Shown one piece after another: positions 24,833 through 46,614 of a DNA stretch of 64,000 nt. Source of the stretch: Bacteroides caecimuris (GTDB taxonomy: Bacteria > Bacteroidota > Bacteroidia > Bacteroidales > Bacteroidaceae); assembly GCF_001688725.2 (NCBI RefSeq), contig NZ_CP015401.2, forward strand, positions 3,914,001 through 3,978,000, read 5' to 3'. Under the pieces are notes generated by a model that saw only the letters and a list, made by a program, of their open reading frames with translations, searched no databases and was not told where the DNA came from. The position numbers were made by a program, and so were the translations under genes. Within the stretch, counting starts at the first letter, position 1; the number at the start of each line of letters is the position of its first letter.

Positions 24833-26362
24833 TTACTTCTGAACCACAATTTTCAACTTACAGGTACGTCCATAGAGTAATGCCACACCGTCATAAGTGA
24901 GTCCGGTTATGCCAGCTCCCGAATAGGCTGGCCCCTGGCTTCCTACCACTCCTGTAGGAGTAGCTATTTTACATCCTCCGGCAACTAACGCATCGGTATC
25001 ATTTGCGGCTTCAATGACATGAATGACACCATATTTGCCCGCCGCAGTAACAAAGGCAATATAAGAACCGTCTTTTATCTGCAAACTACAAGGATCATTC
25101 GGATATCCATCAGATGCATTGACTCTTTGCATTAACATATCGGCACCTCCTTTAGCTATACTTTCCAATACATTCAACGCCTCAAAAGTCTTGACGTCCG
25201 AAGCCGCGTTCGCCATCATCACATCAATACCAAGATCAGTAACCTTATCATCAGGTATAAGAGTAAACAACGTTTTGTTGGTAGCAACACCTGCCGGTTT
25301 AATCCAGTCATTCACATCATAAGCTCTCCCTATCGGCCCTCCATTAATTCTTGATGCACTGACAAAGGAGAAACCTCTGTTTTTAACGGCAACAAAGCTT
25401 GGATTTCTCCATATATTGATGAAAGCAAAGTCTACGCCATTTGCCTTTGAACCATATCCTTTAATTTCCTTCAAGCTTAATACATATTTCTGCACACCCC
25501 GTATCATTATTCCCTCTATGGAGAAAATATAAGGTTGATCCGGTTCTGTTGAATGTTCCCATTCGGGTGCCATTTCGATATCGTTGAAAACAAGCGCAAC
25601 ATTATTGTCAACACCCTCAAAACCTTCGATATTGATAATCTTTTCCTCTTTCAACCCCTCTATATCTTCTACCACAATCTTGATTCCATTGGTCTCTTTA
25701 TTGTCTACGACAGTTTTCAGGATAAATTCCATTTCCAACGGATTGCCTGATACCGGAATAGTCGTATATTCCTTCAGGTCACCCAGTACTTTATTACACA
25801 ATGTATGTTTTATAGACTTAATGCCCACAGCAGAACGAATCACCACAGACAGAGAAACCTCTTCATCGGGTACTAAAACAGGGAAATCTGATGGTTCGGT
25901 GAATATTTGGGATGGAAGTTTAGTTATCTTTTTAATAGGTATTACCTTTTGTGCCGTTTTTGTCAAAACATCCGTTGATGTTACCAGTATCCCGGCTGCT
26001 TCACGCGTGTTGACCTTGACATTCAAGTCAAATTCAAGTGTCATATCAGTTTGCAGAGTATCTATCTTTAAACGTTGACGTTCAGTCGCGTTTATCTCTT
26101 CATATTCTCCATTCTCATCCATCTTCAACAAGGTAGCATATATACTGTGTATACCCACAGCAGAGAAACTTCTGGCAGATACAGTCACCGTCGAGTTATA
26201 TTCCACCACATCTATTTCGGAAGGAGAAGTGAGCTCTACAGTAGGTGGCGGATATGCGTTGTCGTCCGAATAATCGGACTCACTATCACTACAATTTGTC
26301 AACAACAAACCCCATGGAAGGGCAAGTATCAGGATCATTATATTTTTGATATATTGCTTCAT
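24833..26362 (-). CDS. Surface lipoprotein with repeated Ig-like domains, function unknown
   Basis: The 509-residue protein has a type II signal peptide with lipobox LLTNC (Cys24). The lipid anchor is followed by an acidic, Ser/Asp-rich stretch (SDSESDYSDD), a type of signal known to send Bacteroides lipoproteins to the cell surface. Two bacterial Ig-like repeats follow (about 40-140 and 155-250). The C-terminal domain ends like many Bacteroides surface glycan-binding proteins (YDGVALLYGRTCKLKIVVQK). It is the last gene of the fecR transcript and could hold the PUL substrate at the surface (inference). No enzyme motif was seen. Confidence 0.75.
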   Translation of the reverse strand: MKQYIKNIMILILALPWGLLLTNCSDSESDYSDDNAYPPPTVELTSPSEIDVVEYNSTVTVSARSFSAVGIHSIYATLLKMDENGEYEEINATERQRLKIDTLQTDMTLEFDLNVKVNTREAAGILVTSTDVLTKTAQKVIPIKKITKLPSQIFTEPSDFPVLVPDEEVSLSVVIRSAVGIKSIKHTLCNKVLGDLKEYTTIPVSGNPLEMEFILKTVVDNKETNGIKIVVEDIEGLKEEKIINIEGFEGVDNNVALVFNDIEMAPEWEHSTEPDQPYIFSIEGIMIRGVQKYVLSLKEIKGYGSKANGVDFAFINIWRNPSFVAVKNRGFSFVSASRINGGPIGRAYDVNDWIKPAGVATNKTLFTLIPDDKVTDLGIDVMMANAASDVKTFEALNVLESIAKGGADMLMQRVNASDGYPNDPCSLQIKDGSYIAFVTAAGKYGVIHVIEAANDTDALVAGGCKIATPTGVVGSQGPAYSGAGITGLTYDGVALLYGRTCKLKIVVQK

Positions 26363-26375
26363 GACCGTTCATTTT

Positions 26376-27155
26376 TTATTTTAAAGATTCGATTTGTAAT
26401 TGAAAACAATGTAAATCTCCGCTTACACTTGTTTCGGTTACCCCCCTAAAAGCCCATTTGTGTGAAGTCAGGACAAATATACAATACTCGGAGTCTCTAT
26501 TTCTATTTTCCACTTCTACGAAAGAATAGGTATCAGAAGTTAAGTTAGAAGTAATTGCCGACTCAAGATTAGGCAATAACGCACGTTTAACAGTGCCTAC
26601 CAGAACCGTCTGTTCGTTTACCTTTTTCTTGAAAACGTCGACAGCCGGAGCTATCAGGTCTTCACTATTTAATGATACAGAACAGAAGAGCATATCTATT
26701 CCGTTCACTGCTTCTGTTTTTGTTTCAAGATATCTGCAATCGTTTTTTACTACATATTGTGTCATTTCGGAAATAGTAGAAGGAAAAAGAACCGTACTGC
26801 CGATTATCTTTTTCTCTCCGTTACTATAGCTGACAGGTACAAACACCGGCACTTTCTTACTCTCTCTAGCAGTCTCCGTACCCGTATTTATGATTGCAGT
26901 TTGCCCATAGACAGCGTTCGTCCTGTCCAACAATGCCACTGAATGAACAGTGTTTCTGATAGATGACGCCACCTCTTTATAACTACAAGAGCTAAATAAA
27001 TTTTGCCCTGACAAGTGCGCATAAACCAACACGTTAGTTGTTCTGAACCGGTTCCATTCCGGAATATCTTCTCCCTTGTTATCCTCATCACTACACGAAA
27101 CGAACAGGCAAGAGATGACACATATAAATAGCAGATATAGATAGTTTGATTTCAT
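26376..27155 (-). CDS. Lipoprotein of unknown function
   Basis: The 259-residue protein has a lipobox at LFVSC (Cys21), again followed by acidic residues (SDEDNKGED) that suggest surface export. No domain was recognised. The body mixes beta-rich segments with one helical stretch (DLIAPAVDVFKKKVNEQ). It lies between the EEP gene (7 bp away) and the Ig-like lipoprotein gene (13 bp away), so it is certainly co-transcribed with them and probably works on the same substrate. Confidence 0.75.
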   Translation of the reverse strand: MKSNYLYLLFICVISCLFVSCSDEDNKGEDIPEWNRFRTTNVLVYAHLSGQNLFSSCSYKEVASSIRNTVHSVALLDRTNAVYGQTAIINTGTETARESKKVPVFVPVSYSNGEKKIIGSTVLFPSTISEMTQYVVKNDCRYLETKTEAVNGIDMLFCSVSLNSEDLIAPAVDVFKKKVNEQTVLVGTVKRALLPNLESAITSNLTSDTYSFVEVENRNRDSEYCIFVLTSHKWAFRGVTETSVSGDLHCFQLQIESLK

Positions 27156-27162
27156 ATTTCAT

Positions 27163-27936
27163 TCATTTTACAAATTCAACTTCAGCAAACAAAGCCCTGT
27201 GGTCAGAAACTTCCGGATTAGATAAAACTTTAAACGACTTCACTTGCCACTTATTCTGTGGAAGTCCGAATATATAATCAATCTTGATTGTCGGCTGATC
27301 TGCCGGATAGGTGAATGTATCATCGCAGATTCTCTGCCAATTCTTCATGACTTCACAAATCACATTAGAGTCGGTCCGGGCATTAAAATCTCCCCCCAGC
27401 AGTGTCGGGGTATCTCCCGTACCAATCCGTTCATTAATCTGTTCGGCCATTGCACTCCTTATCAGGTCCGTCGAATGATCCAGGTGAGTCGTTCCTATCC
27501 TGATTACGTCTGAAGTTCCCGGTTCCTGAATATCTACATATAATAGCGTCCGGGGTTCTTTGGCCCCGTCTATCCCTTCAAAAGTTTTGTTATTGATATA
27601 AACAAAAGGATATTTTGAAAGGATAGCTACTCCATATTCTCCACCACCAGTATCCATCGCTTTCCCGAATACGGAAAACAATCCCAACTCCGCAGCCAGT
27701 TGAGTGGTGAAATCCTGATTTTTGTTCCTTTTTGTGTTGTAATCTATCTCTTGCAACATTACAACATCCGGATTGTATTTCCTGATAAATGCAGCATACT
27801 CCTTCACCGAGTAACCGGTCATTTCCCCGGACATCCGGCAATTATAGCTCATTATTTTAAGAGCCTGCGCATACGTACTTTGATACGCAAAAAAGAAAAG
27901 GCATACCCATACAATGGGCTTTAAAAGTGCTTTCAT
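27163..27936 (-). CDS. Secreted endonuclease/exonuclease/phosphatase-fold enzyme, second copy in the PUL
   Basis: The 257-residue protein has a cleavable signal peptide (to about residue 24, ...YAQA). The EEP signatures follow: MSYNCRM, VVMLQEIDYNTKR (metal Glu), GTTHLDH, LLGGDFNARTDSN and a final VSDHRALFAEV (Asp-His). This fold includes DNase I-like nucleases and phospholipid or sugar phosphodiesterases such as sphingomyelinases. Being secreted and part of a PUL, a phosphodiesterase on a glycan or glycolipid is more likely than a DNase (inference). A paralogue lies in the susC operon (37622-38413). Confidence 0.88.
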   Translation of the reverse strand: MKALLKPIVWVCLFFFAYQSTYAQALKIMSYNCRMSGEMTGYSVKEYAAFIRKYNPDVVMLQEIDYNTKRNKNQDFTTQLAAELGLFSVFGKAMDTGGGEYGVAILSKYPFVYINNKTFEGIDGAKEPRTLLYVDIQEPGTSDVIRIGTTHLDHSTDLIRSAMAEQINERIGTGDTPTLLGGDFNARTDSNVICEVMKNWQRICDDTFTYPADQPTIKIDYIFGLPQNKWQVKSFKVLSNPEVSDHRALFAEVEFVK

Positions 27937-27967
27937 AAATTTGTTTTTGTTATTAGATTAAGTTTAC

Positions 27968-28924
27968 TTATTCAACGGTATATGTATATTCTGATATTTT
28001 TTTAAAGCTAACCGGTGTTATGGATTGCATCACCTCCAACACATAGTTCAAATCGTTCCCTTTACAAACGAAGTCGTACGTAAACGAAGCAATCTTTTCG
28101 TTTTTAACTGTAATCTCTATATCAAAATGACGCGAGAGTGTTGTAAGCACCTCTTTCAATGATGCATTTCTGAAAATAAGCCGGTTACTCTTCCAACTCG
28201 AAGCATCATCGTGATATCTATCAGTTTTTATTTTTATTACATTACTCCTTTTTTCATAAACTGCAGTTTGTCCGGGAAGCATTTGCTGCATAGGCCTGCG
28301 GCTTTGCACATGCCCGATATTTATACTTCCTTCGTCGAGTGTAGTTTTGATTACCTTATCCGAAGCGTATGCTTTTACATTGAAACACGTTCCCGTCACT
28401 TGTATTTTCACATTCTCGGCAAGTACCTGAAAAGGGGATTTCTTGTTTTCTGCTATCTCAAAATAAGCCTCTCCTTCCAGCGTAACATTCCTGTTGTATC
28501 TTGCAAACTGTTCCGGATAGGTCAATTTAGAATCGGCATTTAACCACACCCGGCTACCATCAGGAAGTAATACGAGTAGCTTCTCCCCCCTTACAGCACA
28601 GACCTCCCGATAAACAAGGTTTGCCTCATTATGACTTTGATAGAAATTATATCCCACACCTATCACTAGCAAAACAATTGCACAGGCTACCGTCCACTTA
28701 AAGAACAATGGCATCCTTATTCTCCTGTTCTTTCGTTTTTCTTCCCGCATCACGGCTTCCTGAATATTCTTATAAATGCGATATTCATCAAAAGGAGGCA
28801 ATTCTCTGTCGCCCAATTCGAGCTGTTTGCCTTCTATTATCCTCTGAATGTCGTCATCCATATATTTCCCGATGCCGTCAACTACTTCAAAGTCCTGATT
28901 TATATGTTTCTTTTTTGATTTCAT
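27968..28924 (-). CDS. FecR-family anti-sigma factor
   Basis: The 318-residue protein has a cytoplasmic N-terminal part (about residues 1-75), one membrane helix (WTVACAIVLLVIGVGYNFY, about 76-94), a periplasmic FecR domain (GEKLLVLLPDGSRVWLNADS, about 115-134 onward) and a C-terminal STN-binding-type domain (FDIEITVKNEKIASFTYDF). It holds the ECF sigma factor inactive until signalled by the STN domain of the cognate SusC. It lies 108 bp downstream of the sigma gene and starts its own transcript from a promoter block shared with susC. Confidence 0.93.
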   Translation of the reverse strand: MKSKKKHINQDFEVVDGIGKYMDDDIQRIIEGKQLELGDRELPPFDEYRIYKNIQEAVMREEKRKNRRIRMPLFFKWTVACAIVLLVIGVGYNFYQSHNEANLVYREVCAVRGEKLLVLLPDGSRVWLNADSKLTYPEQFARYNRNVTLEGEAYFEIAENKKSPFQVLAENVKIQVTGTCFNVKAYASDKVIKTTLDEGSINIGHVQSRRPMQQMLPGQTAVYEKRSNVIKIKTDRYHDDASSWKSNRLIFRNASLKEVLTTLSRHFDIEITVKNEKIASFTYDFVCKGNDLNYVLEVMQSITPVSFKKISEYTYTVE

Positions 28925-28926
28925 AT

Positions 28927-28969
28927 TTCAATATCTATTAGTAATACACACTGTTACAAAAAAGTATTA
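28927..28969 (-). promoter_or_regulatory. Promoter-like block of fecR shared with susC
   Basis: Read on the minus strand, TAATACTTTTTT and GTGTATTAC-TAATAGATATTGAA also occur in the same order and spacing upstream of susC (43631-43675). The block lies just before the fecR start. Confidence 0.6.
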
Positions 28970-29032
28970 TACAGACTACGTTAAACCGTGTTAATTCAAA
29001 AGAACGTTCCATATCAGCAAAAAGTGATAAAA

Positions 29033-29623
29033 CTACATCATACAATAAAGCAACAATAGGCTAAGCTCTCCCACTGTCGCGCGAATCTGCTTCAAAGATT
29101 GGCTATATTGAAATTTAATTGTATTGATCGAAAGATTAAGTTTATCGGCTATTTCCTGATTGGAGTATTTTCCCGAAACTTTCATTTCAAAAACCTTGCG
29201 GCGTTGCGGCGAAAGTTGCTCAAGAGCTTGCTGTATGATGTTCATTTGTTCTTGTTTAAGGTTTTCGTTTTGAGAATTGTCTTCCAATTCCAAAACCATT
29301 GAAAGGCAATCCTCAAGTAAATAGATATTTTTCTTTGAGTCTCTCAACGTATTGAGCAGATCGTTCTTCAACATCGTAAAAAGGTATCTGTTTATGGGTT
29401 TTGTTTCGTCGATCTCTTCTTTTTTCAGCCAGAGTTTTAAGAATAAGTTCTGCACAGCATCTTCAGCCAATTCCTTATTCAGCAAATATTTAAATGCCAA
29501 AGAAAAGGTCTGCGCCGCATACGTCTTGTATACAATACTAAATGCCAGCTGGTTCCCCTCTTTCAGAGCCTTAACCAAAGCTTGGGCTTCATCCTGTGAG
29601 TATTTCTGGGACATCTTAATCAT
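29033..29623 (-). CDS. ECF-type RNA polymerase sigma factor of the PUL
   Basis: The 196-residue protein has sigma region 2 (ELAEDAVQNLFLKLWLKKEE, about residues 53-72) and region 4 (LSPQRRKVFEMKVSGKYSNQ and IADKLNLSINTIKFQYSQSL, about 135-175). It directs RNA polymerase to PUL promoters when released by FecR. The start is uncertain between ATGs at 29621-29623 and 29612-29614. It is divergent to nothing: 109 bp separate it from the preceding GH89 gene on the same strand, with a TATATTTG -7-like box (complement of 29669-29676). Confidence 0.94.
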   Translation of the reverse strand: MIKMSQKYSQDEAQALVKALKEGNQLAFSIVYKTYAAQTFSLAFKYLLNKELAEDAVQNLFLKLWLKKEEIDETKPINRYLFTMLKNDLLNTLRDSKKNIYLLEDCLSMVLELEDNSQNENLKQEQMNIIQQALEQLSPQRRKVFEMKVSGKYSNQEIADKLNLSINTIKFQYSQSLKQIRATVGELSLLLLYCMM

Positions 29624-29732
29624 TTTAAATATGAAAATAAAAAGCTTATTATATCAAGTCCTTACTTTCAAATATATTAATTCTTTCTGATATAGCATGA
29701 TTCGCGAGCAACAAATGAAACAGGCCTCTTAT

Positions 29733-31916
29733 TTATTTCACCAGTCTTTGATATTTGCTGAATAAAAAGGTGGAGAATGATAATAATCCGTCAGTTGTTG
29801 AATGAACATCTTTTCGAGTATCCTTCCGATCAGTTGCATTTACCCAACTTTCTTCTATTTCTTTTAATTCATCTTCAAGTTGCTTCTGATCCACCTCTAC
29901 ACCTTCCCCGACCGCTTTGATGAATGTATTGATATACACCTCCCAGCGCTTTGCATAATAATCACTTATCAGTCCTGCCCACGAACGACTAGCATAATCG
30001 TTCAGGCTTCCACCCCAAGTAGTAATCAAGTTGCGAGCATTCTTTTCATAATAGTCTTTCAACTGGGGAGAATCTCCCATCTTCCGCGCATCATCAATCC
30101 ATTTATCCAGCGAACAGTAAGGATGAAAGGCATTCAGCTTATCCAAATCATTCAATATCTCCTTCATTTTTTCGCCGCAAGCTTTCAAAGCCTGATAATC
30201 TTTGGCTTCAACCATCCTGTCAAACTCCATTTTCACATCAAGAAAGTAGTTTCCAAGCACCTGTCTGCCTACAGTAATCAAATCCAGGCGAAAAGCATCT
30301 CTCCGGTCAGAAGGTGCCTCATTCAGTTTTCTCCAGACCTCTAGTAGTTCAACATTGCTATACACATTACTTGTCCGTTTTTCACTGTTCTTATTCAATG
30401 CAGGGCGATACCCGGGTAAAGTACCCAATGTGCGCGGCACCTGTACATAAATGTCATTGAATAATCGTTTCCAAGCATCGCGCACAGACAGCGACACACA
30501 TCCCACATGTCTGTCAGCCAGACATTCAATCCATTTATTATCACCTACATTCAGGTTCCATGCTTTCTCAAGAATGTATTCGTAGGGAAATTGCATCACA
30601 TCCAATCCTTCCAGCGTAGAGCCGATTCCTTTAAGATTGCCTCCACCGTTAATGAGAGCATTCTCAAGTCGCGCGCCACTTTCTTTGACGTTACCTGTCA
30701 AAGTTGTGTTTCCCCCGAAATTGCCCAGATAACACCAAATATAGGGCTGATTATGAAAATGCTCTGTTCTTTTCCATAATTCAACATTTTCACAATGATA
30801 ATCAAGTAATATCATTTTATTCTGTGGCACTCCTGTCAGCAAAGCCTTCATTCGCTCGGAAGTCCATTTATCTTTATCAAAATAAAACATCCACGTCATT
30901 TGCATCCATTGGGCTTTGGGATCGGCAGCCGTCAATGTAGCGTACATATCCGATGCTATCTTCCGCAAATATTCGGGTTCGAAACTGGGCGGGTCAACCT
31001 CGTTGAAAGGATCTAAACCATAAATATGATCGGTTCCGAAAAGTTTTTTTTGTTCATCAAGAAATAGCTTCTGAATTTTCGCAAACAAAGCATCGTTAGG
31101 GTTCAGAAAATTACAACGGTATGCATCAGCAAAGCCGGCCCATTTGCCCAAATGTTGAATATCGGCCTCGGGATAGATCCGTTTTAAATCGGCAGGTACA
31201 TGTCCGGCAAAGGCTGGTAATACGGGCTTCATATTCAGTTCACGCTCACGTGCGAGTATTTTTTTCTGCAAGCTTACCTGGTGTTCCAGCCATTCCATTG
31301 GCAACGGACCGTTCCAGCGATCTATGTTAGCCATCCGATGCCAGGGCAGATACGGCGGTCCCGTGAAGTAAGAGCGTATTTCGATGTCCGACATTCCCAT
31401 TTTCGACCAAACTTTATACCACACAGCTTCTTGTCCGGTAATGGCCAAAGGCATATTTATACCATTAAGGGCCATCCAGTCAATAAAGCGCTCCCATTCT
31501 TTCCATTGCCACCAAGGCATCGTGTAACCATACGTGCAGTAATTCAGGAAAAAACGAGTATCCACTCGCGCTTCCGAAACCACCTTCTCACCAACCATCG
31601 GCAATTCTTCAGGAATTTCAACGGCTATATCCGCATACCATGACACTGTAGTGAGACAGTAATATTTCAAGTAATGGTTCAGTCCCATCGCCATTGAATT
31701 GGCGTTGTTTCCACTGATTACAATTTTATCTTTTACGGACTCTATCGTAAAGCAGTCTTTCTCTCCTTTCAACTTTTGAAACTGAAAACTCTCGATGTAT
31801 GATGGAAGCAAACGTTTCAATAATGCTTCCGCAACAGCTACGTCTTTGTCTTTAGCCTGAAGAACCAACGACATAAACAACATAACCAGACACGTGTATA
31901 CACTTTTTCTTTTCAT
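29733..31916 (-). CDS. GH89 alpha-N-acetylglucosaminidase, divergent copy
   Basis: The 727-residue protein has a signal peptide (to about residue 21) and the NAGLU N-terminal, catalytic and C-terminal helical domains. The proton donor is Glu306 in DPFNEVDPPS. The expected nucleophile is Glu436 in GSTLEGLDV. GH89 removes terminal alpha-linked N-acetylglucosamine. The stretch after the nucleophile reads LDVMQFPYEYILEKAW, whereas the second copy here has the more usual ESNEVVYELLADMGW, so the substrate pocket may differ. It is the last gene of the susC operon, 6 bp after the DUF5009 gene. Confidence 0.92.
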   Translation of the reverse strand: MKRKSVYTCLVMLFMSLVLQAKDKDVAVAEALLKRLLPSYIESFQFQKLKGEKDCFTIESVKDKIVISGNNANSMAMGLNHYLKYYCLTTVSWYADIAVEIPEELPMVGEKVVSEARVDTRFFLNYCTYGYTMPWWQWKEWERFIDWMALNGINMPLAITGQEAVWYKVWSKMGMSDIEIRSYFTGPPYLPWHRMANIDRWNGPLPMEWLEHQVSLQKKILARERELNMKPVLPAFAGHVPADLKRIYPEADIQHLGKWAGFADAYRCNFLNPNDALFAKIQKLFLDEQKKLFGTDHIYGLDPFNEVDPPSFEPEYLRKIASDMYATLTAADPKAQWMQMTWMFYFDKDKWTSERMKALLTGVPQNKMILLDYHCENVELWKRTEHFHNQPYIWCYLGNFGGNTTLTGNVKESGARLENALINGGGNLKGIGSTLEGLDVMQFPYEYILEKAWNLNVGDNKWIECLADRHVGCVSLSVRDAWKRLFNDIYVQVPRTLGTLPGYRPALNKNSEKRTSNVYSNVELLEVWRKLNEAPSDRRDAFRLDLITVGRQVLGNYFLDVKMEFDRMVEAKDYQALKACGEKMKEILNDLDKLNAFHPYCSLDKWIDDARKMGDSPQLKDYYEKNARNLITTWGGSLNDYASRSWAGLISDYYAKRWEVYINTFIKAVGEGVEVDQKQLEDELKEIEESWVNATDRKDTRKDVHSTTDGLLSFSTFLFSKYQRLVK

Positions 31917-31922
31917 TCTGAT

Positions 31923-33008
31923 TTATAATTTTATATAGATTTTTCTTTTTAACAAAACATACCCCAACAGCCCATTGAACAACAGGAAAAATACACCGTA
32001 CATAAATGAACCGAAGTAATTTCCGAATAACGGGTTAAGCAAATTACTGAACACAGCCGTATGGATATGCCAATGCACAAGCAATCCTCCGGCTATGCAG
32101 CTAAACACATAAATTACAAGCGGATTCGCTCCAAATGCTTTGAAAAACGAAAACCACTTTTTATTCTGCTTTACATCAATGATATAAAGCAGCAATGCCA
32201 ATGACAATGCCGCAATCCCACAAGTGAGCAAAACGAACGAAGGAGACCACAAACGTTTGTTCAAAGGACAGGCATAGCTTAACAAATAGCCGACAAACAA
32301 CAGCGTGGTACCTATAAGAAATAGATTCAGCATCCGGCGGTCATTGTCTTTAATGTCAATGATTATCTTTCCGCAAACAAAACCGATCATCACTTGAGAC
32401 ACAGCGGGAATCGTACTAAGTATCCCCTCGGGATCGACAAACTGGCGGCCCTGAAGATACATGTGGTTAGATCCTAAAATAGCCGAATCAATCATCCCGA
32501 CGATATTATCCGCACTCTTTTCAAATCCGTTTCCAAATAACTGAAAAATAAAGTAGACAACCAGCAAGATAATAGCTAATGGCATAAACCTCTTATGCGG
32601 TATTGTTACAGCCAACAAGGCTGTAATACCATAACAAATCCCAAGCCGTTGCATAACTCCCATCAACCGGAGCTGACTCAAATCAAAATAGTTACCACTA
32701 TCGATTGATGTAATGAACCACTCCATAACCAGACCTATAAATATTAATAAGAGACTTCTTTTTATGATTTTCGCAATGGCCGGTCGACACTGGAAGTTAT
32801 ACTTACACAAGGAAATGTAGGTCGAAATCCCCATCAGGAACATAAACATCGGAAAGACCAGATCGGCCGGCGAAAAGCCATCCCACTTGGCATGTGCAAA
32901 CACAGCATAGTTATAGCCACACTTTCCTGTGTTGTTGACCAAGATCATCCCGGCAACAGTAATACCCCGAAGTACATCAAGCGAAAGTAACCGTTTGTTC
33001 GGATTCAT
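31923..33008 (-). CDS. HGSNAT-like membrane acetyltransferase (DUF5009)
   Basis: The 361-residue protein has about ten membrane segments. It opens with RLLSLDVLRGITVAGMILVN, the family motif shared with human heparan-alpha-glucosaminide N-acetyltransferase, and keeps the FDLSQLRLMGVMQRLGICY and ANPLVIYVFS regions. Human HGSNAT transfers acetyl groups across the lysosomal membrane to terminal alpha-glucosamine, making a substrate for NAGLU (GH89). Here it sits between two GH89 genes, so acetylation of alpha-glucosaminyl ends in the periplasm is a direct hypothesis. Activity in bacteria is inference. Confidence 0.85.
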   Translation of the reverse strand: MNPNKRLLSLDVLRGITVAGMILVNNTGKCGYNYAVFAHAKWDGFSPADLVFPMFMFLMGISTYISLCKYNFQCRPAIAKIIKRSLLLIFIGLVMEWFITSIDSGNYFDLSQLRLMGVMQRLGICYGITALLAVTIPHKRFMPLAIILLVVYFIFQLFGNGFEKSADNIVGMIDSAILGSNHMYLQGRQFVDPEGILSTIPAVSQVMIGFVCGKIIIDIKDNDRRMLNLFLIGTTLLFVGYLLSYACPLNKRLWSPSFVLLTCGIAALSLALLLYIIDVKQNKKWFSFFKAFGANPLVIYVFSCIAGGLLVHWHIHTAVFSNLLNPLFGNYFGSFMYGVFFLLFNGLLGYVLLKRKIYIKL

Positions 33009-33022
33009 AATATTTGATTCTT

Positions 33023-34279: not shown

Positions 34280-34285
34280 TGAGTA

Positions 34286-35428: not shown

Positions 35429-35436
35429 AAAAGCTA

Positions 35437-37593
35437 TCACTTATTTGTTTTCTCTATTAAACTCAATGCAGCCTCGACCGGATCATCAAACGGAGTTGTA
35501 CTGTTACTCCAAGGAGATGTAATCCATTGCTCCTCCCATTCTCGGATTTTATTCCGGTCTTTTGTGAAATAGAGCTGTATACGAGGGATATAGTAGTCTT
35601 TAATCAATCCGCTCCAGAAACGGGCAGCATAATCTTCCTGAATACCACCCCAACTTGTAATCAAGCGTTTGGCATTTGCTTCATAAGCATCTTTTTCCTG
35701 AAGAGTTGTTCCGCTATTGCGCGCAAGTTCCACCCATTCTTCTAATCGATATAAAGGATGAGAAGCCAACAGCCTGTCAACGTCCATCAACAAATCAACA
35801 GTTTGTTGCAGATTACGTTGCGCTGCGAGAACACGATTCTCCGAATCATCTTTCAAGGCCTGTTTATAAAAATTTTCAGCTTTAGCCGCTACATAATACG
35901 AAACAAACTCTATGAGGTCGTTTCTGTATAATTCAGAGCTTTTCAGTTCGTCAGCACAACTGGCATACAAACGTATAGCCTGCAAGTAATCATCACTAAG
36001 GTCGATTTTACTGATCCGCCGTTGATCAGGAATTACAGTTTGCCAGGTAAAACGGGGGTATGAATATAAAGAACTATATGCTGTTTTCCGAAAAAGCTTC
36101 CAAGCTTCCTCCATGGCATCGGGATATCCTCCATAACGGGCCTCACAGTATATCTTCATCCAATCGTCCAGGTCGATACTATCTGATGACCATCCCATAT
36201 CGGCTAACAGTTCGTAAACAACCTCATTGCTTTCGAGTCCTTCAGGGGCAGAACCGAACCCAATCAAGTTACCTTTATTAGCTGCACGTAACGCTTTGAC
36301 CGAGGAGCTTGCATACATATCCAAGTCTCCTGTCATGGTGTTTTTCCCACCAAAGTTGGGTACATAGCTGAATATCCATTTCTTTCCGTAAAATCCATCA
36401 TGTACTTTCCATGTTTGTTCGGTGTTCCATACCCATTTCGGATAATCATTGCCCAAATCAATGATAATCATTTTATCATCAGGTACATTGCTTAACAAGG
36501 CTTTAAGCGATTCTTTATCCCAGAATGAATGTTGATATCCGAATGTCCATCCCTGTGTAACCCAAACGGCATCCGGGTTTCCGGCTGTAATTGATTTATA
36601 GATCGTTTCTCCATACTCGGCCAATAACTTATATTTCGCTTCTTTATCCTCCTTATCGATAGGCAGCTCCATCTCGTTAAAACTGTCCGAGAGATAATAC
36701 GTATTTTCTCCAAACTCTTTTTCCCACTCTTCGACAAACAGTTTGCCTATCTCTTCGAAAAAAGGTGAATCCGGTGGCAATACATAGGCGTTGTACTCTT
36801 CATCAAAACCACCCCACCGCATGTGCCGGAATTGTGTGTCGGGATGTTTCTGGACGAATCCTTCCGGCACGAAACCTGCAAACGCAGGTGCTATGGGCTG
36901 CATACCCAACTCGCGCATACGGGTCAGGATTTGATGCTGCAAAGCGATTTGGTTCTGTTGCCATGCATCAGATAAGGGACCGTCCCACTTGTTCAGATTG
37001 CCCATGCGATGCCAGGGAAGGTGTGCGGGGGCAGTGAAAAACTCACGGATTTCTTCTTTGTTCAATCCCATACGCAGCCATACCCGTTCCGCAATGGCTT
37101 CGCTGGCCACAGTAGCCAAAGGCATATTTACACCATAAAGAGCCATCCTGTCAATTTCCTTTTCCCAACGCTCCCAGTCCCAGTAAGGGGTAGTGTAGCC
37201 GAATGTACAAACATTAAGGAAATAGCGCAACTCATAAGGGGACACCTGTTCATACAGTTCATAATCGGGCCATGGCATCACCGACGTTATGTGTTCACCA
37301 CTCCATGTTTTCATACTCTTGCAGGCCTCTTTCATGTACGTATGAAAAGCGTAACAGATAGCAACGGAGCTGCTTCCCCTTAGGGTAAGCCGGCCGTCGC
37401 TTGCTATCACTTCGAATATATCTTTACCGTCGGATGGTTCGATATATTCAAAGTGGATAGACTGTGCTCTTTCCCCAATCTGACGTTCTATTAACTGTTT
37501 GGCGGGGGTGGTAATATCCGTCTTGGGCTTGTGGCATGAGCAGAAAAAAAGCGTTGCTGAAATCAGTAAATACTTGATTATTGTATGTATCAT
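35437..37593 (-). CDS. GH89 alpha-N-acetylglucosaminidase, canonical copy, lipoprotein
   Basis: The 718-residue protein has a lipoprotein signal (FFCSC, Cys20). It carries the GH89 catalytic domain with Glu307 in SDSFNEMELP (acid/base) and Glu451 in GSAPEGLESNEVVYELL (nucleophile), both by analogy with human NAGLU Glu316 and Glu446. It removes alpha-GlcNAc from non-reducing ends. As a lipid-anchored enzyme it may act at the periplasmic or outer face, whereas the other GH89 has an ordinary signal peptide. The gene lies 28 bp after the EEP gene. Confidence 0.93.
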   Translation of the reverse strand: MIHTIIKYLLISATLFFCSCHKPKTDITTPAKQLIERQIGERAQSIHFEYIEPSDGKDIFEVIASDGRLTLRGSSSVAICYAFHTYMKEACKSMKTWSGEHITSVMPWPDYELYEQVSPYELRYFLNVCTFGYTTPYWDWERWEKEIDRMALYGVNMPLATVASEAIAERVWLRMGLNKEEIREFFTAPAHLPWHRMGNLNKWDGPLSDAWQQNQIALQHQILTRMRELGMQPIAPAFAGFVPEGFVQKHPDTQFRHMRWGGFDEEYNAYVLPPDSPFFEEIGKLFVEEWEKEFGENTYYLSDSFNEMELPIDKEDKEAKYKLLAEYGETIYKSITAGNPDAVWVTQGWTFGYQHSFWDKESLKALLSNVPDDKMIIIDLGNDYPKWVWNTEQTWKVHDGFYGKKWIFSYVPNFGGKNTMTGDLDMYASSSVKALRAANKGNLIGFGSAPEGLESNEVVYELLADMGWSSDSIDLDDWMKIYCEARYGGYPDAMEEAWKLFRKTAYSSLYSYPRFTWQTVIPDQRRISKIDLSDDYLQAIRLYASCADELKSSELYRNDLIEFVSYYVAAKAENFYKQALKDDSENRVLAAQRNLQQTVDLLMDVDRLLASHPLYRLEEWVELARNSGTTLQEKDAYEANAKRLITSWGGIQEDYAARFWSGLIKDYYIPRIQLYFTKDRNKIREWEEQWITSPWSNSTTPFDDPVEAALSLIEKTNK

Positions 37594-37621
37594 AGAAAAT
37601 CATAAATGTTATAAGTGAGTA

Positions 37622-38413
37622 TCAATATTTTTTCTTCGATGCTTCTTTCACATATTCCAGTTCCGTAATAATCGGTAAATGGTCTGACAAAAGCGACTGA
37701 ACAGTTTGTGTACTAATCACACGCCATCCTTTTTGCGGGTAAGCAAACAAGTAATCGATTTTAATCACAGGTTTCCATGCCGGCATTCCAAAATCATCGT
37801 TGCTTGCAGCAAACCAGCTATCCATACCACGTATTGCCTCGGAGTAATGACGCGCGTTGAAATCACCTCCCAAAATTACAGGATATTTATAATTTTTGAA
37901 ATGCCCGGTAATAAATTCTATTTGCTCTGCCCGTGTTTCTTGAGAGTTGACATCCAGATGCGTAGAGGTAAAAACAATGGTATCATTACCCATTTCGAAT
38001 AATCCCTCCAGCATGGCCCGCCTCTCATGCTCTTTGACCGGATGGGGCAGCATTATCTTTTGGACAGAAATATATGGATATTTACTTAACATCCCAATAC
38101 CGTAATAACCGGTAGAATAGTCAATCGTTTTTCCGTAAAGCCCAAACATCCCTGTATGATAGGCAAGTTCGGATATAAAATCCTTCCCCTTCTGATGCGG
38201 GGTACGCTTACGGTCTGTTTTGCTATCCACTTCCTGAAGCGCCACAAAATCAGGCTTGAAAGATTTGATGTGATGAGCAAGTTCCTCTAAAGATGCCAGT
38301 TCGCCAAATCTTAAATTATAGGTCATTACCCGCACCCGTAGAGTATCTTGCGCATAGGCAACGCCCAAAGTCAGGCATAAAAACAATAATAAATATTTCT
38401 TCATTGAATACAT
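37622..38413 (-). CDS. Secreted endonuclease/exonuclease/phosphatase-fold enzyme
   Basis: The 263-residue protein has a signal peptide (to ...VAYAQ, about residue 22). The EEP signatures follow: MTYNLRFGE, FVALQEVDSKTDRKR (metal Glu), TSTHLDVNSQ, ILGGDFNARHYSE and the final LLSDHLPIITEL. It is a metal-dependent hydrolase likely to cut phosphoester bonds. Together with SusD it is one of the first three genes of the operon, suggesting an early role in handling the substrate, for instance removing a phosphodiester group. The start may also be the ATG at 38402-38404. Confidence 0.9.
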   Translation of the reverse strand: MYSMKKYLLLFLCLTLGVAYAQDTLRVRVMTYNLRFGELASLEELAHHIKSFKPDFVALQEVDSKTDRKRTPHQKGKDFISELAYHTGMFGLYGKTIDYSTGYYGIGMLSKYPYISVQKIMLPHPVKEHERRAMLEGLFEMGNDTIVFTSTHLDVNSQETRAEQIEFITGHFKNYKYPVILGGDFNARHYSEAIRGMDSWFAASNDDFGMPAWKPVIKIDYLFAYPQKGWRVISTQTVQSLLSDHLPIITELEYVKEASKKKY

Positions 38414-38432
38414 GGTTTCTATTTTTTAATGA

Positions 38433-40166
38433 TTACTTTTCCCAGCCCGGATTTTGTCCTAACAGAGGATTCTTCTGGCGCTCGGGATTAGGCACGGGCC
38501 ACAAATAATGTTTCGTTGCGTCGAAGTAGCGTGCTCCGCCTTCCGCAGTAGACTTTTCGTAGATAACATCACCAAACTCATCCACTCCGGTATCGGGATA
38601 CGGGTTGGCGCCCAAATCATTCATACAAACTTTCAGGCTGGGACCGGTGATGGCACGTCCAAAGCGAAGTTCGCCTTCACGCCAGCGCATCACATCGGCG
38701 TATCTTGTTCCTTCACCTGCCAACTCAATGCGGCGTTCTCTTCTCAATTCGGTTTCGAGATCCATCCCCCATGCGCTAAGTTCGTCAAGGTTCATACGAT
38801 GCATATTCACACGATCTCTAAGCCTGTTGATGGAGTAATCAATCTGTGTTTGTGTCAGTTTCTTGCCTTGTAGTTCGAAAGTGGCTTCGGCATAAATCAG
38901 CAAGATTTCGGCAAAGCGGATGACATTGAGATTCCCATGTCCACCCACACTTGAGCCGGCCAAATCAATATCGTTATACTTTTTCAGATAGAAACCTGTA
39001 CGGCTATTTGCCCCCACACGGTTATTATCTTGCAATGAAGCAAAACGAGGCAGATTAAATATCTCGTTGGCCTTATCCGTATCAGGATCACCGTCATCTC
39101 CTCCCGGCCATTTGTCACCCGGAGCATATAAAGTCATCTTCATTCTAGGATCTCTGTTCTGGAAGTAATCCACATAATGCTCTTCAGGCGACTTGTATAA
39201 CGATGAGGTCTGCACACCGGTCTTTTTATAATATTCCAATCCGGTTTTTGCCGGTTTACCGTCTGTACACAGATAAGCATCCACTAACGACTTCGTTGGA
39301 TTGAGGCGTATATAGTCTGTCGGACTGCAAGTTTCATTGGGCAGACTTTGTGTACGGATTTCAGGTACAAAAAGACTATATACGATAGCTTCGATATTTT
39401 TCGGATCATTCTCGACATCCCCTTCGTGATGAAATAGTTTTTCGTATTCATACAGGCCATAGGGACTGTTTTCGATGATATATTCACTCGTTTTTGCAGC
39501 CAGTTCCCATCTTTCGTTTTGCAAAGCAATACGTGCCAATATAGCTAAAGCGCCCCAGCGGTCGAGTCTTCCCAGTTTATCGCCCGTATACCTTTCTTCA
39601 GGCATACGCTCTGCCGCCCATTTCAAATCCTCGACGAGCTGGTCAATGACTTTCTCTCTGGGAGTACGTTCGATATATGCATCTTCGGGCTGGATGACTT
39701 CTCCTACCCAGGGTACATCACCCCAAAATGTCGTGAGGTAAAAGTACATAAGCGCCCGGATGGTTTTTACTTCTGCGGCATAAACGTCCTTCTTATTTTG
39801 AGCTACCTGCGCTTTATTATAGTTGTCCAGAAAATTATTGCAGCGATAAATATAGCTATACGCTCCTGTCCAATAGGTAGTGAAAGGGAAGCCGTCAGTA
39901 TAAGAGTGCTTGCCTCCCGAAACCTTACTTAGTCCACTAGTAATATTCCCCCACATAACAGTTTCGGCCGTCGATTCACTCCAATTCACGAGATAGTCTT
40001 TTTGTAAAGCTTCGTAACAGGGAGGCAAGGCATTTTTAAGCTGATCTTCATTCACCCAGAATGTTACATTGTCCGGCTCGTTAGGGTTCGTTCTATCCAG
40101 AAAATCACTACATGAGGTAACTATGCCAAATAAAGCAATGATTAAAAAGTATTTTGAGTATTTCAT
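38433..40166 (-). CDS. SusD/RagB-family outer-membrane glycan-binding lipoprotein
   Basis: The 577-residue protein has a lipobox IVTSC (Cys19) and typical SusD features: SDFLDRTNP after the anchor, the TPR-like helical core, RFAEILLIYAEA, and the C-terminal YLWPVPNPERQKNPLLGQNP. It caps the SusC channel and binds the substrate at the cell surface. It is 20 bp after susC and precedes the EEP enzyme gene. Confidence 0.95.
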   Translation of the reverse strand: MKYSKYFLIIALFGIVTSCSDFLDRTNPNEPDNVTFWVNEDQLKNALPPCYEALQKDYLVNWSESTAETVMWGNITSGLSKVSGGKHSYTDGFPFTTYWTGAYSYIYRCNNFLDNYNKAQVAQNKKDVYAAEVKTIRALMYFYLTTFWGDVPWVGEVIQPEDAYIERTPREKVIDQLVEDLKWAAERMPEERYTGDKLGRLDRWGALAILARIALQNERWELAAKTSEYIIENSPYGLYEYEKLFHHEGDVENDPKNIEAIVYSLFVPEIRTQSLPNETCSPTDYIRLNPTKSLVDAYLCTDGKPAKTGLEYYKKTGVQTSSLYKSPEEHYVDYFQNRDPRMKMTLYAPGDKWPGGDDGDPDTDKANEIFNLPRFASLQDNNRVGANSRTGFYLKKYNDIDLAGSSVGGHGNLNVIRFAEILLIYAEATFELQGKKLTQTQIDYSINRLRDRVNMHRMNLDELSAWGMDLETELRRERRIELAGEGTRYADVMRWREGELRFGRAITGPSLKVCMNDLGANPYPDTGVDEFGDVIYEKSTAEGGARYFDATKHYLWPVPNPERQKNPLLGQNPGWEK

Positions 40167-40186
40167 CTTTATAGTCGTTTAATAGG

Positions 40187-43100
40187 TTAGAATGTTATTG
40201 ATAATCCAAAAACATAGGTTTTTACTTGCGGGTAAACATCTCCGCTGGTGGTCCTCACTTCAGGGTCATAAGCTCCGAAGTAATCGGTTTTAGTAAACAA
40301 GTTATCTGCCGAAGCATATACTCTAAGACTATTAATGCCAAGAGGTGCCACCATTCGGGCAGGAAAACGATAACCTATCTGAATATTCTTCAGACGCAAG
40401 TACGATGCATCCTCTTTCCAGTAGTCACTGAAGAGCCTGTTGTGCTCCTGCGACTGATAAAGTCTGGGATAAGAAGCATTTGGATTCATAGGCGTCCATC
40501 TGTCAAGATGCTCTTTTTTAGGGATTGAGTAGTCATTGATAAACGCATGCCGAGCCTCATCCTCAAGGTAACCGGCAACTTTGCCTACGCCTTGCAAATA
40601 GAAACTGAAATCAATGCCTTTCCATTCCAAACCACCCTTGATTGCATAGGTGTAATGGGGCTCTTTCTCGCCAAACACCACTTTGTCGTAGTCATCAATT
40701 ACCCCGTCGGGAGCGCCGTCAGGACCACTGATGTCCCGATACTTAATATCTCCGGGCTGTACAATGCCGTTTTGTGATGCAACAAGAGGAAATTTTGGTT
40801 TCTGGTACTTACCTGTAGTTGTATTCACTGATTCAAAGTCATACACTTGCGCCAGCCCATCAGTCAGATAACCATAGAAAGCACCTATCGGATCACCTAC
40901 CCGACGATACGAACCGGAAGCCGTACTGGTCAGCGACTCCGGAGTTCCACCCAAATCGGTAATCTTATTACGGGCGTCCGACAGATTGAACCCGAAATTG
41001 TAATTTACATTTCCGATCTTATCACGCCATGACAGATTAAGTTCCCATCCTTTGACATCAATCTTACCAAGATTGACATAACCTACGTTACTACTGGAAA
41101 CCCCGACAATAGCCGGAACATCGGGACGAACCAATGCATCAATATTTTCTTTCTTATACCAATCAAAGTCCACATTCAGTCTATTGTTCAAAAAACTAAG
41201 GTCTACTCCGAAATTAAGCATGCGGATGGTTTCCCACTTGATGTCGGGATTACCGATTTTGTTTTGCCAAAGTCCCATAACAGGTGTATTAGAAGCTCCG
41301 ATAGGATAAGACTCTTCGGTTATGATAGGTGACAAGTAGGGGTAGTAATTACCGGGAATGTTTTGATTTCCCAATTCACCCCAGGAAGCACGCAGCTTAC
41401 CCGAACTCAATACCGAAGTAGCGAACTCCATGAATTTTTCACGTGAGAAGTTCCATCCTGCCGAGAACGATGGAAAATATCCCCAACGATTGCCCTTGGC
41501 AAATCTTGAAGTTCCGTCGGCACGCAGGTTAGCTTCAAACAGGTATTTACCGTCAAAAGCATAGTTGACACGACCAAAGTAAGAACGCAAAGCCCACTCG
41601 TCTTTTGTTCCGCTATTCATAAAATTAATCATTCCGGCGCTAATAACGTGAATATCCTCAACCATCACATTATCACGCGTAGCACCCAGTGTGCTTCTGT
41701 TTTCCCACTCTTGCGAAAATCCCATCAATGCTCCCAACTCGTGGCGTCCTATGGTCTTATTAAAGTTCAGGGTGAATTGCAACGTTTGGGTCATAACGTC
41801 AAGATGGCTTTGTGAGATATAGTCCTTGGCATCTTCATTTGCTTTCAACGGGCTACCGTCCGAGTAATAAGACAACATCTTCGGGTTAAACTCATCCACT
41901 TGGCGGGTATATATATTTGCAGAGTACTGCATACCTACGTTCAGTCCGTCTATAATTTTGAGATCTGCATTGAAAATACCATTGAGCACGCGTGTTTTCC
42001 GTTCTTCCATTCCCGACTCATAAGCTACCTGCAAGGGGTTACGTACCGAACCGTACGACCAGTTCTCACTATCTACCATCCGGCCATTCTCGTCAGGAAT
42101 TTGCCACATGACGGGAAGTAACGGAGACATACGCTGTGACAGGCGGAATACTCCTGATGTGCCGCTATAACCTAAGTCCTTTTTATAGAAATCGACATAG
42201 CTCATCTGTCCGGTCAGTTTCAGACGATCATACACCTCCGTGTTTACACTGATACGCGCATTATGTCTCTTGGAACTATATCCGTCACCTACAACCAGTC
42301 CATCCTGATCCAGGAAACCATACGACATAAAAAATCCGGTTTTCTCGCTTCCACCCCGTGCACTTACATTATGCCCTGTCTGAAAAGCTCGGCTTTTGTA
42401 TATTTCGTCAATCCAGTCTGTATTGGAATATTCGTTGGGATACAGTCCCGAATCATATTTATCGAAAGCCTCTTGTGTATAGGGCTTGGAAAATCCGGCA
42501 GCACTCATGGCTTCGTTGGAGAGTTCCATGTATTCCCTTCCGTTAACAAGTTTGGGCAATGCTGTGGGAGTCTGGAATCCGGCATATCCGTTATATTGGA
42601 ATACTACACGTTCTTTCTTTTCTCCCTTTTTAGTCGTTACAAGAATAACACCGTTAGCGGCACGTGCTCCATAAATGGCCGATGAGGCGGCATCTTTCAG
42701 TACGGATACGCTTTCGATGTCCGAAGGATTCAATAAGTTGATGTCTCCCCCGGCTACTCCATCAATCAAGATCAAAGGTGCTGTACTACTGTTGATGGTT
42801 CCCGTACCACGAATGTTGATACTGGGCACAGCACCCGGTTGTCCCGAAGAGGAAACGATACTAACTCCAGGCAACAATCCTTGCAGACCCGTAGTTACGT
42901 TAGTAATAGGTCGGTTCTCGATAGCCTCCGCTTTGACCATAGATACAGCACCTGTTACATTCACTTTCTTTTGTACGCCATAGCCTACAACTACTACATC
43001 TTCCAGGCTGACAGCATTCTCTTTCATCACTACGTTTACTGTCGTTGCTTTCGCTATGACGCTTTCTTCACGGTAGCCGACGTATGAGTACCGAAGTGTA

Positions 43101-43606
43101 CTTCCATAGGGTACCTTGATGGAATACTGACCATTGATATCGGTGATTGTACCTGTAGTCGATCCTTTTACCGATACGGTGGCTCCGATGATCGGTTCCG
43201 TATTCTCGTCAGTAACTTTACCTTTCACATACAGTTCCTTCTTCTCTCCTTGTGAATCAACAGGTTCAGTTTTATTTTGATATTCTTTATTATAAAATAA
43301 AATACTGTCATCCAGGAAACGGAACCCAATGTTAGTCCCTTTTAGCAAAAGAGTTAGTGCTTTGTTTACATCTGTGTCTTTTACCTCCAATGACACTTTC
43401 CTACTCGTATCCACAAATTCTTTACTATAGGCTACATTCATCGATGCCTTCTCTGCTATCTGACTGATAGCTTCTTTAAGAGGAAGCTCTTTGATACTAA
43501 CCGATATTTTTTGCTGTTGTGCATAAACAAAAACTGTGACAAATATGCACATTAAGGTTACAATACACCTTCTGCCGGTGGATGAAAAAGGAGAATCTTT
43601 TTCCAT
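40187..43606 (-). CDS. SusC/RagA-family TonB-dependent transporter with STN signalling domain
   Basis: The 1139-residue protein has a signal peptide (about residues 10-29), an STN domain (about 33-110, KISVSIKELPLKEAISQIAE), a carboxypeptidase-like regulatory domain (about 125-195, VKGKVTDENTEPIIGATVSV) and the plug with the SusC box VVVVGYGVQKKVNVTGAVS. A large beta-barrel follows, ending in YVFGLSITF. It imports the glycan in a TonB-driven way and signals its presence through STN to FecR. It heads the PUL operon under the promoter block shared with fecR. An STN domain is absent from the other SusC in the window. Confidence 0.96.
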   Translation of the reverse strand: MEKDSPFSSTGRRCIVTLMCIFVTVFVYAQQQKISVSIKELPLKEAISQIAEKASMNVAYSKEFVDTSRKVSLEVKDTDVNKALTLLLKGTNIGFRFLDDSILFYNKEYQNKTEPVDSQGEKKELYVKGKVTDENTEPIIGATVSVKGSTTGTITDINGQYSIKVPYGSTLRYSYVGYREESVIAKATTVNVVMKENAVSLEDVVVVGYGVQKKVNVTGAVSMVKAEAIENRPITNVTTGLQGLLPGVSIVSSSGQPGAVPSINIRGTGTINSSTAPLILIDGVAGGDINLLNPSDIESVSVLKDAASSAIYGARAANGVILVTTKKGEKKERVVFQYNGYAGFQTPTALPKLVNGREYMELSNEAMSAAGFSKPYTQEAFDKYDSGLYPNEYSNTDWIDEIYKSRAFQTGHNVSARGGSEKTGFFMSYGFLDQDGLVVGDGYSSKRHNARISVNTEVYDRLKLTGQMSYVDFYKKDLGYSGTSGVFRLSQRMSPLLPVMWQIPDENGRMVDSENWSYGSVRNPLQVAYESGMEERKTRVLNGIFNADLKIIDGLNVGMQYSANIYTRQVDEFNPKMLSYYSDGSPLKANEDAKDYISQSHLDVMTQTLQFTLNFNKTIGRHELGALMGFSQEWENRSTLGATRDNVMVEDIHVISAGMINFMNSGTKDEWALRSYFGRVNYAFDGKYLFEANLRADGTSRFAKGNRWGYFPSFSAGWNFSREKFMEFATSVLSSGKLRASWGELGNQNIPGNYYPYLSPIITEESYPIGASNTPVMGLWQNKIGNPDIKWETIRMLNFGVDLSFLNNRLNVDFDWYKKENIDALVRPDVPAIVGVSSSNVGYVNLGKIDVKGWELNLSWRDKIGNVNYNFGFNLSDARNKITDLGGTPESLTSTASGSYRRVGDPIGAFYGYLTDGLAQVYDFESVNTTTGKYQKPKFPLVASQNGIVQPGDIKYRDISGPDGAPDGVIDDYDKVVFGEKEPHYTYAIKGGLEWKGIDFSFYLQGVGKVAGYLEDEARHAFINDYSIPKKEHLDRWTPMNPNASYPRLYQSQEHNRLFSDYWKEDASYLRLKNIQIGYRFPARMVAPLGINSLRVYASADNLFTKTDYFGAYDPEVRTTSGDVYPQVKTYVFGLSITF

Positions 43607-43630
43607 AATATTAGTCTTTAAAGTTAATAG

Positions 43631-43675
43631 TTCAATATCTATTAGCTAATACACAAGAGGTATTAAAAAGTATTA
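43631..43675 (-). promoter_or_regulatory. Promoter-like block of susC shared with fecR
   Basis: On the minus strand TAATACTTTTT, then GTGTATTAGCTAATAGAT and ATTGAA, match the block before fecR (28927-28969) over about 43 bp with few differences. It ends 25 bp before the susC start. It is a candidate target of the PUL sigma factor. Confidence 0.6.
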
Positions 43676-45264: not shown

Positions 45265-45274
45265 CTATAGTCAA

Positions 45275-46595: not shown

Positions 46596-46614
46596 CTATA
46601 GTCAACATTTTAAA

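Follow-up and report, generated by a model that had tools for sequence, protein, structure and literature searches.

The polysaccharide utilisation loci (PULs) of Bacteroidota that combine SusC/SusD with an extracytoplasmic function (ECF) sigma factor and FecR are the closest described counterpart of a locus we analysed in Bacteroides caecimuris. The locus lies in a 64,000-nucleotide stretch of contig NZ_CP015401.2 (assembly GCF_001688725.2, positions 3,914,001 to 3,978,000), hereafter the window. It shares with these PULs susC and susD, glycosidases, surface lipoproteins and the sigma/anti-sigma pair. It differs from an ordinary PUL by the addition of predicted phosphodiesterases, a predicted transmembrane N-acetyltransferase and a putative pair for glycerate import and phosphorylation, and by its predicted substrate, a clostridial lipoteichoic acid (LTA). 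A second parallel comes from human lysosomes, where HGSNAT transfers acetyl groups across the membrane to terminal alpha-glucosamine (GlcN) before the GH89 enzyme NAGLU cuts. In contrast to the human pair, the bacterial proteins would have a Gram-positive polymer as their substrate and the periplasm as their site of action, and the acetyltransferase is optional. The characterised GH89 enzymes (human NAGLU, CpGH89 of C. perfringens and a GH89 of B. thetaiotaomicron) resemble those of the locus in family, domains and catalytic residues. Their substrates are heparan/heparosan or the N-acetylglucosamine (GlcNAc)-alpha-1,4-Gal of mucin, and neither glycerate nor teichoic acid is named in the excerpts of the source available to us (PMC8225759; excerpts are also the basis for the other papers cited here). 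Finally, the GlcNAc phosphodiesterases (GlcNAc-PDases), a subfamily of secreted EEP enzymes that clusters with Cwh43/PGAP2IP, are described as cleaving phosphodiesters at C6 of GlcNAc (PMC10704324). They come mostly from Clostridium and were tested on phosphorylcholine and phosphoethanolamine groups, not on a 6-P-6 bridge; we set them beside the EEP proteins of the window by description only. We found no description of a teichoic-acid PUL or of a GH89/glycerate-kinase locus in open-licence PubMed Central, as judged by titles and the start of abstracts.

The locus is likely to be a PUL for LTA of the C. difficile type (PS-III/LTA), or for a polymer with the same repeat. The published repeat is [-6)-aGlcNAc-(1-3)-[-P-6]-aGlcNAc-(1-2)-D-glyceric acid], with 6-P-6 phosphodiesters, and GlcN apparently replaces about 15% of the L residues (PMC10642750). 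The same repeat is given in two other papers, one of which describes a synthetic dimer of it (PMC6972965) and the other the cross-reaction of anti-PS-III antibodies with other clostridia (PMC5270738). Compared with this structure by gene content, the operon has a gene suited to each bond, as well as genes for glycerate uptake. The two alpha-GlcNAc bonds correspond to the two GH89 proteins, the 6-P-6 diester to the EEP proteins, alpha-GlcN to the HGSNAT-like protein, and D-glycerate to the GntP permease and the kinase. This match draws on sequence for the gene identities, catalytic residues, conservation, gene fusion and replacement of kinase and permease, and on the literature for the structure of the polymer.

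All genes of the locus lie in one minus-strand region of the window (24833-43606, Table 1). The genes from susC to GH89b (susC, susD, EEP1, GH89a, kinase, GntP, NagX/HGSNAT-like and GH89b) are arranged head-to-tail with intergenic gaps of at most 28 bases, and the kinase frame overlaps GH89a by 4 bases. The adjoining susC and susD, followed by two co-directional GH89 genes, give the gene content of a SusC/SusD PUL. The ECF sigma gene and fecR follow GH89b after gaps of 109 and 108 bases, and EEP2 and the genes of a 259-aa and a 509-aa lipoprotein stand behind fecR with gaps of at most 31 bases. A first-pass annotation, made from the sequence, had listed these genes, and all are present where it placed them; the ECF sigma gene before fecR is an addition to its list.

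The gene set is conserved as a unit well outside the source genome. Among 148 genomes (that of the window and 147 relatives), a matching glycerate kinase was found in 77 and a GH89 in 64. Coordinates place the kinase beside two GH89 genes in six: the window's own genome, G021, G081, G087, and G034 and G077 of Bacteroides pyogenes. In each of these genomes the kinase search gave one match at E 1e-20, and GH89a-type matches (1041-base match length) are present in the same six. The whole locus occurs in G021 and G081 at 94% identity or more. In G087, whose susC and susD are outside the fetched stretch, the genes from EEP1 to GH89b match at 59-75% and further EEP genes at 28-30%. The B. pyogenes loci (L083 and L082) match at 57-68%, except for a separate EEP at 32%. 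Their second EEP is fused to GH89a in a single frame (an EEP1-GH89a fusion), and no NagX-like gene was found in these two loci.

When named genomes were scanned with the GH89a alignment, 165 loci were confirmed, and the best 80 of these were compared; distant GH89a are thus under-represented, and contig ends truncate some loci. Among these 80, the closest named carrier is Bacteroides xylanisolvens XB1A, with 97-100% identity per gene and the last lipoprotein cut by the end of the stretch. GH89a identity is at least 50% in 50 loci (the close loci), a split that was chosen after the identities were seen and that falls between L120 (50.8%) and L123 (48.9%). Genes were counted as tblastn matches of the window's proteins at E 1e-8. 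The close loci contain a second GH89 in 44 cases, an EEP in 43 (two or more in 41), susC in 39, the kinase in 35 and GntP in 31, the latter by similarity to the window's permease. The 30 distant loci contain no EEP, kinase or GntP, a second GH89 in two cases and susC in nine (Fisher p for close versus distant: EEP 1e-15, kinase 8e-11, GntP 2e-9). An EEP is present in 42 of the 44 close loci with two GH89 genes. Gene order varies: with C for susC, D for susD, E for EEP, A for GH89a, B for GH89b-like, K for kinase, P for GntP, N for NagX-like and f for fecR, it is f-C-D-E-E-A-B-K-P in 10 loci, C-D-E-E-E-A-K-P-N-B in six, and the remainder form smaller classes. The susC orthologues are 56-66% identical to that of the window in NagX-type, B. 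pyogenes and Prevotella-like loci, and mostly 39-44% in the other loci with susC. Where Rikenellaceae-type and environmental loci have a second GH89, it differs in kind from GH89b, to which it is 34-39% identical. GH89a is the constant member of the cluster. Since the same set recurs in diverged genomes, the locus is not a chance assembly. The search for the whole set that the first-pass annotation had proposed thus returned a recurrent unit, in line with its idea of an alpha-GlcN(Ac) polymer with phosphate and glycerate, putatively cleaved by EEP and GH89 enzymes, whose glycerate would pass to GntP and the kinase.

The kinase and the permease belong to this unit. Among the 42 close loci with an EEP and two GH89 genes, a PF02595 kinase is present in 34 and a MOFRL-type kinase in L086; three reach a contig edge (L089, L102, L124), and four have none in the locus (L087, L090, L094, L096), the L094 genome having a PF02595 kinase on another contig. 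In L086, a GntP of another subfamily and the MOFRL glycerate kinase directly follow the GH89 pair; the MOFRL family is regarded as unrelated to PF02595. GntP permeases also stand beside kinases in L103, L106 and L118. In a midpoint-rooted tree, the cluster kinases form three well separated groups: most Bacteroidales, L100/L106/L110/L152, and L103/L109/L118, with a program warning that two long-branched cluster groups may be falsely joined. Of 24 non-cluster loci tried, 20 passed the open-frame filter, and two of their kinases (L010 and L011) fall inside the cluster group. Two cluster kinases are incomplete: that of L078 is split between frames, and the match in L104 covers 31%. In the Bacteroides nordii draft (L078, 12296-18065) the frames of kinase, GntP and GH89b are broken or short, by decay or sequencing error. 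Because unlike genes repeatedly fill the same two functions, import and phosphorylation of glycerate was probably selected. We considered the pair as housekeeping passengers and rejected this: the kinase is the sole PF02595 match in the window's genome and is replaced in place elsewhere. Such replacement, including that by another kinase family, ties the pair to the GH89/EEP cluster, as the first-pass annotation had supposed in linking it to the glycan.

The predicted enzymes retain their catalytic residues. Both GH89 proteins have NAGLU domains above the curated cut-off and are 33% identical to each other. E307 and E451 of GH89a align with E316 and E446 of human NAGLU (numbered from positions in the solved chain), and E306 and E436 of GH89b occupy the positions of the two catalytic glutamates. 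The motifs TYN/SYN, QE, THLD, GDFN and SDH are kept in EEP1 and EEP2, which both score well above the PF03372 cut-off (Table 1). EEP1 had no match in PDB at E 0.001. EEP2 also matches the PGAP2IP-type model PF23226, just above its cut-off, which we count in favour of the LTA reading because the GlcNAc-PDases cluster with Cwh43/PGAP2IP (PMC10704324). In some relatives the N-terminus of the EEP that follows susD reads as a lipoprotein signal, and this EEP may work at the surface.

The best solved relative of the NagX/HGSNAT-like protein is human HGSNAT (E 4.8e-25). Its His39 aligns with chain His297 of the solved human protein, which we take to be the catalytic histidine. The window's genome also encodes, outside the locus, another NagX/HGSNAT-like protein (51% identical) and a third GH89 (C1:89719-90819 and C1:10742-11743); the locus copy may therefore be dispensable for acetylation of GlcN. 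L115 (14380-15492) encodes a distant NagX-like protein between the second GH89 and the kinase, with 266 bits to the NagX model and 27% identity to that of the window, which suggests a second recruitment of the acetyltransferase function.

Loci of relatives add genes on the phosphate side: an alkaline phosphatase in B. nordii (L078), PafA in Gramella (L093) and a calcineurin-type phosphoesterase family in five loci (Pfam-checked in L106 and L093). The Gramella locus also has a GlcN6P-deaminase-like protein and two ROK-family proteins. Such genes are expected if the products are GlcNAc, phosphate and glycerate. The deaminase-like protein of L093 (6945-8864), beside the GH89 genes, carries a fused PIG-L (GlcNAc de-N-acetylase) domain, and a frame of L094 (5153-7072) begins like it. 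A protein of the sulfatase/alkaline-phosphatase superfamily occurs in the flanks or cluster of eight loci (L088, L095, L104, L111, L112, L113, L078 and L099); in L095 and L104 it is PF00884 with SGSH_C, and it may be a sulfatase or a phosphoesterase.

The two lipoproteins behind fecR also have counterparts in other loci. Homologues of the 259-aa protein occur in 18 other loci, between two EEP genes. Its profile matched the EEP profile with 91.8% over 131 columns when mature parts were compared (97% with signal peptides included), against at most 1.4% for 10 control profiles. Because the profile matches EEP but the catalytic motifs were not seen by eye in its alignment, the protein is probably a degenerate EEP turned into a binding protein. 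The 509-aa lipoprotein has a 97% profile match to the lipoprotein encoded between EEP1 and GH89a in 18 Rikenellaceae-type loci (11 other profiles gave at most 0.7%). These matches link the genes downstream of fecR with the remainder of the locus.

From these genes we infer which bond each enzyme would cut, the order and cellular location of the steps, the product of the kinase and glycerate as the cargo of GntP. SusD and the two lipoproteins would hold the polymer and SusC would import pieces of it. EEP enzymes would open the GlcNAc6-P-6GlcNAc phosphodiester, and either an EEP or a phosphatase encoded elsewhere would then take off the phosphate. Exposed alpha-GlcN ends would be re-acetylated by the NagX/HGSNAT-like protein with acetyl-CoA from the cytoplasm, a step that human HGSNAT performs ahead of NAGLU. 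Of the two GH89 enzymes, one would cut aGlcNAc-(1->3)-GlcNAc and the other aGlcNAc-(1->2)-glycerate, so that GlcNAc is removed in turn and the last cut frees D-glycerate. We would guess that GH89a may be the GlcNAc-glycerate enzyme, since its kind is constant and that of the second GH89 varies. D-glycerate would enter through GntP and be converted by the kinase to 2-phosphoglycerate for glycolysis.

Several observations weigh against the assignment to C. difficile-type LTA. The acetylation proposed by the first-pass annotation is the weakest link of the explanation. Homology and the conserved histidine speak for it, yet the NagX/HGSNAT-like protein is far under the equivalog cut-off of 480 bits of the NagX model, making it a homologue and not an equivalog, and its gene is optional (13 of the 50 close loci), which led us to reject it as an essential part. 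Nor is the gene enriched relative to the distant loci (3 of 30, Fisher p 0.15). EEP1 scores 25.5 on the PGAP2IP-type model PF23226, below the cut-off of 27, and the operon of the window gave no match to a dedicated phosphomonoesterase. Seven of the 50 close loci lack an EEP by tblastn: in L103 the contig begins at GH89a, unlike in L085, L099, L108, L116, L117 and L120, which have flanks; protein clustering adds one EEP-like frame in L117. Three Prevotella-like genomes with an EEP and two GH89 genes (L087, L090 and L096) gave no PF02595 or MOFRL match, which means that some carriers do not use glycerate in this way. A related kinase-GntP pair (59% and 64%) lies in G062 (L071, 4726-7132) with no GH89 in the fetched stretch, and the pair may thus also serve other sources of glycerate. 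Some carriers have soil or marine names (Rufibacter, Pontibacter and Gramella), and we know of no C. difficile-type LTA in soil or marine bacteria, nor of another source of it for these environmental carriers. These non-gut Bacteroidota, and the accessory genes that differ among versions of the cluster (GH97, sulfatase-family and GH127 genes in some loci), speak for another phosphodiester glycan with alpha-GlcNAc-glycerate units, such as a capsule, an O-antigen or a secondary cell-wall polymer, with the same chemistry but another source. We consider this unlikely, if clearly the most serious of the alternatives: the LTA repeat needs no extra residues to account for the enzymes in the operon of the window, and we found no other D-glyceric-acid repeats with GlcNAc in the open-licence literature, although the query was narrow and the test is weak.

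The remaining alternatives concern other chemistries. The first-pass annotation had also named glycosylphosphatidylinositol (GPI)-like glycolipids: an EEP like PGAP2IP/Cwh43 would act on GPI anchors, the HGSNAT-like protein would acetylate GlcN-inositol and GH89 would remove GlcNAc from inositol. EEP2 is indeed just above the cut-off of the PGAP2IP-type model, and an inositol monophosphatase gene (23789-24592) lies 240 bases downstream of the last lipoprotein gene. This gene was tried as a member of the system and rejected: it adjoins the near-identical locus of G021 and was not seen in the fetched stretches of G081 (which stops soon after the cluster), G087, G034 and G077. The GPI core has one alpha-GlcN bond, not two, which fits poorly with two GH89 proteins. 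With no mannosidase among the domain matches of the operon proteins, and with kinase and GntP left without explanation, a GPI substrate is most improbable, and of the substrates first proposed we retain a phosphate- and glycerate-containing alpha-GlcN(Ac) glycan, narrowed to the LTA repeat with GlcN. Use of heparan/heparosan or of gastric-mucin alpha-GlcNAc, with kinase and permease as unrelated passengers, would agree with the known substrates of GH89, as a B. thetaiotaomicron enzyme of this family cleaves heparosan oligosaccharides (PMC8225759), and with the action of HGSNAT on heparan in lysosomes. We regard it as very unlikely. No lyase or sulfatase family was found among the Pfam and NCBIfam matches of the operon proteins, as the first-pass annotation had remarked; EEP is fused to GH89; and, unlike passengers, the kinase and the permease have given way at the same position to distant counterparts or to a different kinase family. 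GPI and heparan both fit worse than LTA. EEP phosphodiesterases and alpha-N-acetylglucosaminidases would also suit polyglycerol-phosphate teichoic acids with alpha-GlcNAc side groups. Such a polymer yields glycerol and requires a glycerol kinase, whereas the operon has a glycerate kinase; moreover, no GlpQ-type (GDPD) family is among its domain matches, and we give this substrate hardly any credence.

Table 1. Genes of the predicted LTA utilisation locus (window coordinates).
Gene	Coordinates	Strand	Predicted product	Evidence
susC	40187..43606	-	TonB-dependent outer-membrane importer with STN domain	Pfam STN, Plug, CarbopepD_reg_2
susD	38433..40166	-	Surface glycan-binding lipoprotein (predicted)	Pfam SusD_RagB, SusD-like_3
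EEP1	37622..38413	-	Secreted EEP-superfamily phosphodiesterase (predicted)	Pfam PF03372 71.1 bits (cut-off 24.5); catalytic motifs intact
GH89a	35437..37593	-	Alpha-N-acetylglucosaminidase (predicted); constant member of the cluster	Pfam NAGLU 418 bits
Glycerate kinase	34286..35440	-	Glycerate kinase	PF02595 473.3 bits (cut-off 23.3); TIGR00045 457.2 bits (cut-off 168)
GntP	33023..34279	-	GntP-type inner-membrane permease, predicted glycerate importer	Pfam GntP_permease 101 bits, CitMHS 63 bits
NagX/HGSNAT-like	31923..33008	-	Transmembrane glucosaminide N-acetyltransferase (predicted)	NCBIfam NagX 157.6 bits; human HGSNAT homology
GH89b	29733..31916	-	Second alpha-N-acetylglucosaminidase (predicted)	Pfam NAGLU 459 bits; both catalytic Glu
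ECF sigma	29033..29623	-	ECF sigma factor	Pfam Sigma70_r2 and r4_2
fecR	27968..28924	-	FecR-type anti-sigma factor	Pfam FecR, FecR_C
EEP2	27163..27936	-	Second secreted EEP phosphodiesterase (predicted)	PF03372 81.3 bits (cut-off 24.5); PF23226 27.3 bits (cut-off 27); motifs
259-aa lipoprotein	26376..27155	-	Probably degenerate EEP used for binding	Profile match to EEP family
509-aa lipoprotein	24833..26362	-	Predicted surface glycan-binding lipoprotein	Profile match to Rikenellaceae-type lipoprotein

On the other side of the locus, the window contains a head-to-tail tandem of two DDE transposase genes (43933-46608), each encoding the same 383-aa protein. Their 1152-bp frames are identical and start 1331 bp apart. 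Starting some 330 bp upstream of susC, the identical stretch could influence the promoter of the operon.

Taken as a general statement, it is moderately likely that many Bacteroidota, gut Bacteroides among them, carry a dedicated bond-by-bond system for glycerate-containing clostridial LTA, including that of C. difficile. Such a system would couple periplasmic phosphodiester cleavage and HGSNAT-style re-acetylation to the exo-glycosidic removal of GlcNAc from glycerate. The prediction is directly testable with the published synthetic dimer of the repeat (PMC6972965). If it holds, it would define a new class of substrates for GH89 and EEP enzymes and account for a glycerate kinase inside a glycan locus. 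It would also provide enzymes that cut the LTA of C. difficile, a vaccine-candidate glycan, and a genomic marker to predict consumers of the polymer. LTA of this type would also have to be far more widespread than is recognised, given that the cluster extends to soil and marine species. The locus would then be one by which Bacteroidota use a Gram-positive teichoic-type polymer, with the envelope of one gut phylum consumed by another and the surface polymer of a pathogen serving as a nutrient for a commensal.

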